In this document: positions 26,289 to 28,633 of the stretch, one piece after another
How the letters are laid out: each line of letters opens with the position of its first letter
Position numbering within the stretch: position 1 is the first letter of the stretch
DNA from: Candidatus Krumholzibacteriota bacterium
GTDB taxonomy: Bacteria; Krumholzibacteriota; Krumholzibacteriia; LZORAL124-64-63
Assembly: GCA_024275485.1 (NCBI GenBank)
Contig: JAJRZA010000025.1
Span: forward strand, 1-50,785
Direction: 5' to 3'
DNA: 50,785 bases
Translations under genes and position numbers: made by a program
Notes under the pieces: model-generated
Told to the model about the DNA's origin: nothing
What the model saw: only the letters and a program-made list of their open reading frames with translations
Databases searched by the model: none

Positions 26289-26326
26289 CCACCAGGGAAT
26301 CGAACCCCGAACCTACTGATTAAGAG
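26289..26326 (-). repeat. 38-bp copy of the tRNA-Lys 3' half (att-type site)
   Basis: These 38 bases are identical to 28565-28602, the segment of the tRNA-Lys(CTT) gene from the anticodon loop to the start of the 3' acceptor strand. Identity stops on both sides at the same point. Duplication of a tRNA 3' portion that starts in the anticodon loop is the classic product of tyrosine-recombinase integration. The 5' half and the CCA end are absent, so this is not a second functional tRNA. Confidence 0.85.
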
Positions 26327-26348
26327 CATACCCAACCCCAAAATTTTA

Positions 26349-26666
26349 TCACCGAATTTCCAATAAAATCTCATTGCGGTGGTAATCCAAAAAGTGCTTT
26401 TGCCCGGAAGAAAATGTTCCCACGTTTATCCGTCCAGAATTATCAATTGTCAAACCGGGAAGCAAAATCCCGGGGTTTTCTATTTCAATCCGATCATCAA
26501 GAAAAACAATGCGCAGGAGTGCACCACGTTGCGAATAATCAGCATGAACTATGGCATTTATTACCGCCTCACGCAGAATTCCAAATGGGAGGCTCCAAAC
26601 ATCCTTGCGACGAACTTCCGACAAATCAGTTCCACGCAAAGCATGTTTTTTGAGATAAACATTTAT
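26349..26666 (-). pseudogene. Fragment of an AlbA_2/HATPase_c_4 (RecG-like) protein
   Basis: About 105 codons read INVYLKKHALRG...SLPFGILREAVINAIVHADY...IEIENPGILLPGLT, the ATP-binding (HATPase_c_4) part of the putative transcriptional regulator / RecG-like helicase family common in islands. A TAA at ~26670 cuts off the N-terminal AlbA_2 domain, and the frame ends at 26349 soon after an unrelated FSSGQKHFLDYHR tail. A full gene is ~400-500 codons, so this is a remnant. It lies inside the tRNA-flanked segment with the Fic gene. Confidence 0.7.
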
Positions 26667-26827
26667 TTAGAGAAATTTCACCGTTTTATGGCAATACTGA
26701 GTTTGAGATCAACTATGCAAACAGGAAAAGCACACTTCATACGATAGTTTTCGACAGATTTTGCGTTTAGCCCCAAAACAAATACCTGCCTATCTTACCA
26801 AAAGTTAAGGATTTCTCAAATAAACAA

Positions 26828-26856
26828 TTGACAGAATAGAATAATTTTCATACATC
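26828..26856 (+). promoter_or_regulatory. Putative promoter of the Fic gene
   Basis: TTGACA (26828-26833) is followed after 17 bp by TACATC (26851-26856), leaving about 85 nt of leader before the ATG at 26947. It lies in a very AT-rich stretch (26667-26946) that otherwise contains no recognisable gene. Confidence 0.4.
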
Positions 26857-26946
26857 CTAATAGTCTAGAGACAGCACGACCGGATAAGCTCACTTTAGCC
26901 CGTCGGCCAAACAGAATCACCTACCAACTGATCAAGGGCTATCACT

Positions 26947-28461
26947 ATGGCTACTTCAAAAGAAAAACTAGCCAACTCGCTGAAGATCCTGACAACACTC
27001 CAGGATGACGGACGAATGGCCATCCGTTCCAGTGACCTGACACGAACCCATCGCGAGCGATTGTTAAAATCAGGGTTCCTCCAGGAGGTTATGAAGGGAT
27101 GGTATATCATATCCCGGCCAGATCAGACAGGGGGTGAAAGCACGGCCTGGTATGTATCCTTCTGGGGTTTTTGTGCTGACTATTTGAATTCACGATTCGG
27201 GGAAACCTGGTGTCTCTCACCAGAGCAGTCCCTACTGCTTCATGCAGGCAATCAAACCGTGCCGCCGCAACTACTAGTAAGGAGCACGAAGGGAAGCAAC
27301 AAAGTCGTCCATCTCCCCCATGATACATCTCTTTTGGCAATTCGTGCCTCGATTCCGAAGAACTCGGACATGGAAGAGAAAGAGGGTTTGCGGATTTATT
27401 CGCTTACCAGTGCACTGATCAACGCTTCCCCATCATTCTTTACAACCCATGAGGCTGACGCACGTGCCACCCTTGCTTTGGTGCGCGATGCCTCTGAAGT
27501 CTTACCCTCCCTGCTTGATAATGGGCATACAACCATTGCAGGTCGGCTTGCTGGAGCCTTTGAGAATATTGATCGAAGCCGGATTGCCGATGACATTGTC
27601 CAAACCATGCGTGCAGCAGGCTATGAAGTCCGCAAGAAAAACCCTTTCTCAAACCAACCGTCAATCGCACTGCCAATCAATTCCGGGTCTGCGCCTGTGC
27701 ATCGATTGCGATTGATGTGGGCAGAGATGCGTGAACCGGCAAGCGCCAATTTCCCTGCTCCCCAATCTCAACAGATTGACATTCATGCCTATTTAAAAAC
27801 CGTGGATGAGAAATTCACCACTGATGCCTATCACTCACTATCCATCGAAGGGCACCAGGTCGACAAAGAACTGATCGAAAGAATCAAGAGTGGCCATTGG
27901 TCTCCCGCTGAGATCGAAGATGGCCGAAACAGCCGGAATGCTCTAGCCGCAAAAGGGTATTTTCAAGCCTTCCAGAAAGTTCAATTCAGTTTGAAACGGG
28001 TTTTGGAAGGTGAGGACCCCGGGCTGGTGGTGAAAGATGAGCATGGCGTCTGGTACAGGGAAATGTTTCAACCAGGTGTCGCCGCCGGACTATTGCTTCC
28101 TTCAGACCTGGCTGGTTATCGAAACAGCCCTGTGTATATCAGCAATTCCCGATATGTGCCACCAAGTAAGGCCGTTGTTCGGGACCTGATGGCCGCCTAT
28201 TTTGAGTTGATTACAACGGAAATTGATCCTGCTGCCAGGGTTGTTTTAGGGCACTTTGCTTTTGTGTTTATCCACCCTTACTTGGATGGGAATGGTCGGA
28301 TAGGGCGGTTTTTGATGAATGTGATGGCGGCTGCAGGGGGATATCCATGGATGGTGGTTCCGGTGCAGAGGCGGGATGTGTATATGGAGGCTTTGGAAGT
28401 GGGTAGTGTGTCCGGGGATATTAGGCCATTTGCCCGGTTTCTTGCTGGTTTAATTGCGTAA
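26947..28461 (+). CDS. Fic-family AMP-transferase with N-terminal AbiEi-like regulator domain
   Basis: Protein of 504 aa. The Fic motif HPYLDGNGRIGR is at 443-454 (catalytic H443). The auto-inhibitory (S/T)xxxE(G/N) motif is present as S297-LSI-E301-G302, upstream of the core, which makes this a class II self-inhibited Fic protein. The first ~60 residues (LANSLKILTTLQDDGRMAIR...GFLQEVMKGWYIIS) look like the winged-helix start of AbiEi-type type IV antitoxins, and the region to ~230 continues that domain. So a likely DNA-binding regulator and a nucleotidyl-transferase are fused. It is the only intact gene between the two 38-bp tRNA-Lys repeats and is AT-richer than the flanking core genes, in keeping with recent transfer. 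Its target is unknown. Confidence 0.88.
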   Translation: MATSKEKLANSLKILTTLQDDGRMAIRSSDLTRTHRERLLKSGFLQEVMKGWYIISRPDQTGGESTAWYVSFWGFCADYLNSRFGETWCLSPEQSLLLHAGNQTVPPQLLVRSTKGSNKVVHLPHDTSLLAIRASIPKNSDMEEKEGLRIYSLTSALINASPSFFTTHEADARATLALVRDASEVLPSLLDNGHTTIAGRLAGAFENIDRSRIADDIVQTMRAAGYEVRKKNPFSNQPSIALPINSGSAPVHRLRLMWAEMREPASANFPAPQSQQIDIHAYLKTVDEKFTTDAYHSLSIEGHQVDKELIERIKSGHWSPAEIEDGRNSRNALAAKGYFQAFQKVQFSLKRVLEGEDPGLVVKDEHGVWYREMFQPGVAAGLLLPSDLAGYRNSPVYISNSRYVPPSKAVVRDLMAAYFELITTEIDPAARVVLGHFAFVFIHPYLDGNGRIGRFLMNVMAAAGGYPWMVVPVQRRDVYMEALEVGSVSGDIRPFARFLAGLIA

Positions 28462-28557
28462 AACATGGGCTCCATCTCATGGATAGTTTAATTAAGTGGG
28501 CGCTACACCCAAGAAAAAAGAACCCACGACCAAAGCCGCAAGCCCTTCATTCAAATT

Positions 28558-28633
28558 TGGTACGCCACCAGGGAATCGAACCCCGAACCTACTGATTAAG
28601 AGTCAGTTGCTCTGCCAATTGAGCTAGTGGCGC
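28558..28633 (-). tRNA. tRNA-Lys (anticodon CTT)
   Basis: A full cloverleaf on the minus strand: acceptor GCGCCAC (from 28633) pairs with GTGGCGT, D-arm GCTCAATTGGCAGAGC, anticodon stem ACTGA/TCAGT with loop CTCTTAA (anticodon CTT), T-arm CGGGG-TTCGATT-CCCTG, discriminator A, and genomically encoded CCA (28560-28558). Its 3' half is duplicated at 26289-26326, marking it as an integration target. The copy here is intact and should be functional. Confidence 0.95.
28565..28602 (-). repeat. 38-bp direct repeat inside tRNA-Lys (att-type site)
   Basis: Identical to 26289-26326 over 38 bp, from the anticodon-loop CTCTTAA to GTGG of the acceptor stem. With the other copy it brackets about 2.3 kb holding the Fic gene and a HATPase remnant. 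No integrase gene is present between the copies. Confidence 0.85.

Follow-up and report, generated by a model that had tools for sequence, protein, structure and literature searches.

Repeat, tRNA Gene and Enclosed Genes

The window, i.e., the whole 50,785-nt stretch of DNA analysed here, carries an intact tRNA-Lys(CTT) gene that is linked by a perfect 38-bp direct repeat (start-to-start spacing, 2276) to a second, partial copy of itself; the two repeats delimit the interval 26289-28602 (Table 1). The repeat corresponds to nt 32-69 of the tRNA: its first base is the one that opens the anticodon loop (CTCTTAA), and its last base lies seven bases short of the encoded CCA end. The results of the repeat finder and ARAGORN bear out a sequence-only reading of this DNA, in which a perfect 38-bp repeat at these two positions had been described as beginning in the anticodon loop of tRNA-Lys CTT. 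An exact match of this length within a 50-kb window is far beyond chance. In the source genome (G000; 3.98 Mb, 96% complete, a fragmented assembly of 106 contigs), a whole-genome search finds just two copies of the 38-bp sequence, the remaining matches being tRNA-like with 72-82% identity; its dispersal to many unrelated positions, named in the sequence-only reading as evidence against integration, is not seen. As in a tRNA-targeted island, the direct repeat connects the intact tRNA gene with a 3′ tRNA fragment that points the same way. The terminator immediately past the tRNA aligns with the tRNA-Lys terminators of relatives with z values of up to 7.5, and no such alignment is obtained for the distal copy.

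Between the repeats lie a Fic gene, the AT-rich region upstream of it and the remnant of an AlbA/HATPase_c_4 gene. Profile matches (PF02661 and HATPase_c_4) support the presence of a Fic gene and a truncated HATPase/RecG-like gene, both of which had been recognized from the letters alone. The match of the 96-codon HATPase_c_4 remnant sits at the family cut-off; a relative (G006) has a full-length, 468-aa homologue 0.23 kb downstream of tRNA-Lys. The GC content of the interval drops to 0.40-0.52, compared with 0.54-0.60 to the right of the tRNA. The interval includes no integrase gene, as had been noticed previously, and a whole-genome profile search for tyrosine recombinases (PF00589) gives no match on the window's contig.

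The distal repeat copy does not reach the tRNA 3′ end. It stops 7 nt short, at nt 69, and runs into a remnant of an IS481-family transposase (rve_3 match weak), which starts within a few bases of the end of the copy on the minus strand. Position 26289 is therefore a damaged end, and the original island was not necessarily 2.3 kb in size. We read the missing 3′ end as damage, and it is the parent island, rather than an intact island at the present locus, to which we assign the status of tRNA-targeted island. Dating of the junction by further copies of the IS481 remnant was abandoned, as the remnant is present in a single copy in the genome.

AT-richer accessory DNA, including the HNH and HIT genes, extends to the left past 26289, and the HNH gene has no match in five relatives of the genus. 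The island may originally have extended further, or two islands may have accreted. The HNH and HIT genes (24542-26031, minus strand) match the PtuB/PDC-M01B and ThsC-type HIT models of PADLOC, and a two-gene defence unit is possible. Farther to the left (22945-24407, minus strand), an AHH-nuclease-like protein (weak match, below cut-off) is followed by an Imm11 family immunity protein; by sequence, the two look like a toxin-immunity pair of the polymorphic-toxin kind.

Table 1. Features at and around the tRNA-Lys locus (positions are those of the window).
Feature	Position	Strand	Evidence
HNH endonuclease-like gene adjoining the HIT gene, accessory	24542..25600	-	genus search
HIT-domain gene left of the island, accessory	25603..26031	-	only distant paralogues in genus
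IS481-family transposase C-terminus remnant, abutting the displaced copy	26068..26288	-	tblastn, 53-63% identity to IS481 transposases
Displaced attachment copy (tRNA nt 32-69), without nt 70-76 and terminator	26289..26326	-	repeat finder
Truncated AlbA/HATPase_c_4 (RecG-like C-terminal) gene remnant	26349..26639	-	PF13749, 26.2 bits
AT-rich region upstream of Fic, probable promoter/operator	26660..26946	+	sequence
504-aa Fic gene convergent with tRNA; active-site motif HPYLDGNGR and inhibitory SLSIEG	26947..28461	+	PF02661; AlphaFold; Foldseek
Terminator-like hairpin and T-run immediately past the CCA end	28514..28557	-	homologous to family tRNA-Lys terminators
tRNA-Lys (CTT), integration target, intact, CCA encoded	28558..28633	-	ARAGORN; Rfam RF00005; 76/76 nt identical in G003, G005, G014, G022
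tRNA-proximal attachment repeat (tRNA nt 32-69, from anticodon loop)	28565..28602	-	repeat finder
nth (endonuclease III-type), right-hand neighbour of tRNA-Lys, conserved across the family	28748..29410	+	synteny

The tRNA-Lys Site in Related Genomes

In relatives, tRNA-Lys is identical or near-identical to that of the window, and in most members of the family where nth was found, nth and tRNA-Lys are adjacent. Gene content past tRNA-Lys varies from genome to genome. A single-copy (empty) tRNA site, with a different gene order on the left, is found in G003, G014, G022, G009 and others. No second tRNA-Lys fragment is present in the fetched sequences downstream of the tRNA, whose lengths are 14.5 kb (G003), 6.4 kb (G014), 7.2 kb (G022), 16 kb (G009) and 0.55 kb (G005). 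The single-copy tRNA-Lys site is the family norm. Comparison with an empty site, which had been proposed as a check of integration, thus succeeds in part: relatives do have single-copy tRNA-Lys, but none has the left-hand gene order of the window, and hence there is no base-exact empty site. G004 was set aside as an islanded relative, its contig ending at nt 50 of tRNA-Lys.

Also on the right, genes for an XPB-like helicase and a Helicase_C_3 protein occupy 29453-33309 (minus strand) between nth and ssb, which are separated by a gap of only ~60 bp in G003. These helicase genes are a second lineage-specific insertion near tRNA-Lys.

Fuller tRNA-Lys islands occur in two members of the same family. 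In G024, which is of another genus, an open gene for a 406-aa tyrosine integrase is located 0.3 kb past tRNA-Lys and is followed by genes that look like those of a type I restriction-modification system. The displaced tRNA-Lys half, on another contig, begins at the same anticodon-loop base as in the window and continues past CCA to a terminator; a different terminator follows the tRNA-proximal half. The G024 island and the remnant are thus alike in target and in the starting base of the displaced half. Unlike the remnant, the G024 island retains an intact integrase and the restriction-modification-like genes, is split over two contigs and has no related Fic gene within the part seen. In G023, the displaced half (nt 33-76 and the terminator) precedes a Fic gene, with an order and orientation matching those of the window, and the Fic protein is the closest homologue found (about 68% identity). 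This contig differs from the remnant in that 7.8 kb of other genes separate the half from Fic, and it stops inside Fic, before the tRNA end.

Because G024 and G023 carry these fuller islands, tRNA-Lys is an island hotspot in the family, used at the anticodon loop. The displaced halves, which begin in that loop, and the single-copy sites of relatives also uphold the initial proposal that tRNA-Lys is the integration target with crossover at the anticodon loop. A hotspot at tRNA-Lys(CTT) is thereby shown for a poorly studied and mostly uncultured family, and G024 points to an integrase that would use it. Moreover, an island can bring its own terminator, since terminators of this kind flank the G024 island on either side. 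On this ground, we rejected an argument against integration based on the family-type terminator of the window's tRNA and the absence of one from the distal copy, a contrast that had initially hinted at a tRNA end that was never split.

The Fic Gene and Its Subfamily

The active-site motif of the Fic protein, HPYLDGNGR, agrees with the pattern for Fic/Fido adenylyltransferases, HPFx[D/E]GN[G/K]R, and SLSIEG agrees with the N-terminal [S/T]xxxE[G/N] pattern of class II. Both motifs are well conserved: HPYxDGNGR is present in all 86 of the Fic homologue sequences (86/86) and SLSIEG in 84 of the 86. AlphaFold models the protein with confidence (pLDDT 88.7), and Foldseek relates the model to FICD and further Fic structures. 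These matches are essentially confined to the Fic domain, with nothing assigned to the N-terminal region. The protein is matched by the PADLOC models SoFic and PDC-S24/S04, and its score for the SoFic equivalog NF046030 is 37 bits versus a cut-off of 550. Like the class II proteins FICD and SoFic, it has a Fic fold, an HPxxDGNGR active motif and an N-terminal inhibitory motif; unlike them, it has an extra N-terminal part of ~280 residues. The protein is probably an AMP-transferase of class II that inhibits itself and belongs to the toxin/defence type, and we infer the toxin or defence role from family and context.

Homologues with 53-69% identity are found in many phyla and on plasmids. On a viral contig (L201, IMGVR_UViG_2747842457_000001), a 58% homologue is located directly past terminase-like and tail-like genes; judged from these neighbours, Fic is prophage cargo as well. 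In G007, a perfect 28-bp piece of tRNA-Lys (nt 28-55) lies at a non-tRNA site just past the stop codon of a 61% homologue (L070, G007:C32, 2063-2090), and matches the tRNA-Lys of the window better than that of G007 itself. Several copies of an AWARRCTA-type repeat occur upstream of Fic homologues (L120:5860-5960; also L154, L115, L130 and L141). At least two such repeats are present upstream in 27 of 80 homologues and in none of 80 shuffled controls. The repeat is likely an operator and perhaps serves self-regulation of Fic.

The same subfamily recurs in tRNA islands at various stages of decay. At tRNA-Leu (L130), a Fic island has an intact P4-type integrase together with a second, broken integrase copy. 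The integrase at tRNA-Arg (L141) is broken by an in-frame stop. At tRNA-Phe (L154), the tRNA occurs in three copies and the integrase survives as a 138-aa fragment, with tRNA repeats flanking Fic; the tandem islands of this locus (1-10800) hold HipBA-like genes and two Fic-type genes. Two tRNA-Met loci have an intact Fic gene within a short interval. One (L120) has a 47-bp repeat from the anticodon loop, an integrase in pieces and a Fic interval of 2.7 kb, and the other (L115) has a 30-bp repeat, a 5′-truncated integrase and a Fic interval of 2.3 kb. Most other direct repeats around Fic homologues were set aside as they are not tRNA-derived. As these islands, which reach into other phyla, differ in both tRNA gene and bacterium, the pattern is one of recurrent cargo behaviour and not of a single element. 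In a comparison along this series, the window's remnant looks like the last stage of integrase decay.

Statistical enrichment of the subfamily beside tRNA 3′ ends is only suggestive. Among 80 loci, six tRNAs lie within 1.6 kb of Fic, each with its 3′ end facing Fic; p is about 0.006 versus the distal flanks of the same loci, and 0.12 if a background of 1.5 tRNA clusters per 100 kb is assumed.

Several independent stages of decay are represented (intact island, interrupted integrase, integrase fragment and no integrase), with one Fic subfamily intact throughout. Persistence of Fic amid integrase decay makes selective retention of a toxin/defence gene testable. That the subfamily, with its N-terminal extension and repeated upstream operator, is a recurrent hitch-hiker driving its own retention is unlikely: on this reading, islands at different tRNAs in unrelated bacteria would repeatedly lose the integrase and shrink to Fic-only islets of 2-3 kb, either because losing Fic carries a cost or because Fic shields the host.

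Probable Origin of the Interval and Comparison With Known Islands

Overall, the interval 26289-28602 is best explained, with a probability of roughly 0.85, as a decayed, immobile, CIME-like remnant of a tRNA-Lys(CTT) island that has lost its integrase and most of its cargo and has kept Fic. The island would have entered tRNA-Lys(CTT) through a tyrosine integrase, with the crossover at the anticodon loop. It would have brought a new tRNA 3′ half and its own terminator (now 28514-28602), displacing the old 3′ half to 26289-26326. Afterwards, the integrase and most cargo would have been lost, leaving Fic as the sole intact gene. A deletion joining the displaced half to the IS481-type remnant would account for the missing nt 70-76 and old terminator. 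Against this explanation, the displaced end is incomplete by the textbook standard, and the IS481-linked deletion is itself inferred.

A variant that is compatible with this explanation, possible albeit on the unlikely side, is a tandem array in which an older HNH-HIT island and a younger Fic island used the same tRNA and the far attachment site of the older one was lost. Both genes to the left of 26289, HNH and HIT, are accessory with a low GC content, and related Fic genes are found in the tandem tRNA-Phe islands with three tRNA copies (L154) and beside a second, broken integrase copy at tRNA-Leu (L130). However, a third tRNA-Lys fragment is absent from the window, and the IS481 remnant lies between the two modules.

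As for mobility, the genome has four PF00589 matches, all of them off the window's contig: two are Xer-type recombinases, one is an integron integrase and the fourth is a P4-like integrase that is truncated. None of the four is a plausible tRNA-Lys integrase; one could lie in the part missing from the assembly. The P4-like integrase, on contig C21, was rejected as a helper: it has lost the C-terminal catalytic part and is located beside a tRNA-Ala(GGC) half, not tRNA-Lys. That locus (L182, G000:C21, near 23440-24811), in which the truncated integrase adjoins a tRNA-Ala(GGC) 3′ half, is a second decayed tRNA island in the genome, and the intact tRNA-Ala is on contig C50 (G000:C50:843-908). Because an integrase in cis is absent and the search of the genome gave no suitable one, we do not expect the remnant to be excised at present. 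The sequence-only reading had left a choice between a deletion remnant and an element that moves with help from elsewhere. The former is favoured, given the broken HATPase gene, the IS481-truncated attachment site and the decayed integrases of homologous islands, whereas help from elsewhere finds no suitable integrase in the genome.

A minimal att-Fic-att element that is still mobile, relying in trans on the integrase of another tRNA-Lys island, is very improbable. The two core repeats match perfectly, also in the crossover region of the anticodon loop, the family does have a tRNA-Lys integrase (G024), and Fic intervals of similar length are seen at the two tRNA-Met loci; yet those loci hold integrase wreckage indicative of decay, the distal site of the window has no flank past nt 69 and abuts the IS remnant, a broken gene lies inside the interval and the search elsewhere gave no identical interval. 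Also very improbable is a non-integrase origin by illegitimate duplication of part of the tRNA with separate arrival of Fic, which would suit the partial copy and the 28-bp tRNA-Lys piece beside Fic in G007, where there is no tRNA gene, but not a copy that starts where the displaced halves of G024 and G023 start, nor the recurrence of the Fic subfamily in integrase-bearing tRNA islands.

The decayed-island explanation can be placed among known systems. The Islander database includes 2083 islands with anticodon-centred sites (PMC4383910). Its 'A' sites resemble the present locus in that a 3′ tRNA fragment is displaced, the tRNA is regenerated and crossover occurs at the anticodon loop, but Islander islands require an integrase gene, which 26289-28602 does not have. 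A CIME is an attL/attR-flanked element without integration and transfer genes, derived from decay of an integrated element (PMC5704250). For the remnant, neither transfer genes nor an intact parent, be it an ICE, IME, prophage or other element, were identified. It has kept both 38-bp att cores and has no integrase, but the outer arm of one att site is gone beyond the repeat. By analogy with CIMEs, its capture would require the arrival of another tRNA-Lys-specific island next to it. Leftovers of this type, in which a tRNA island has decayed to a single surviving gene, are already familiar, and this locus is a new instance.
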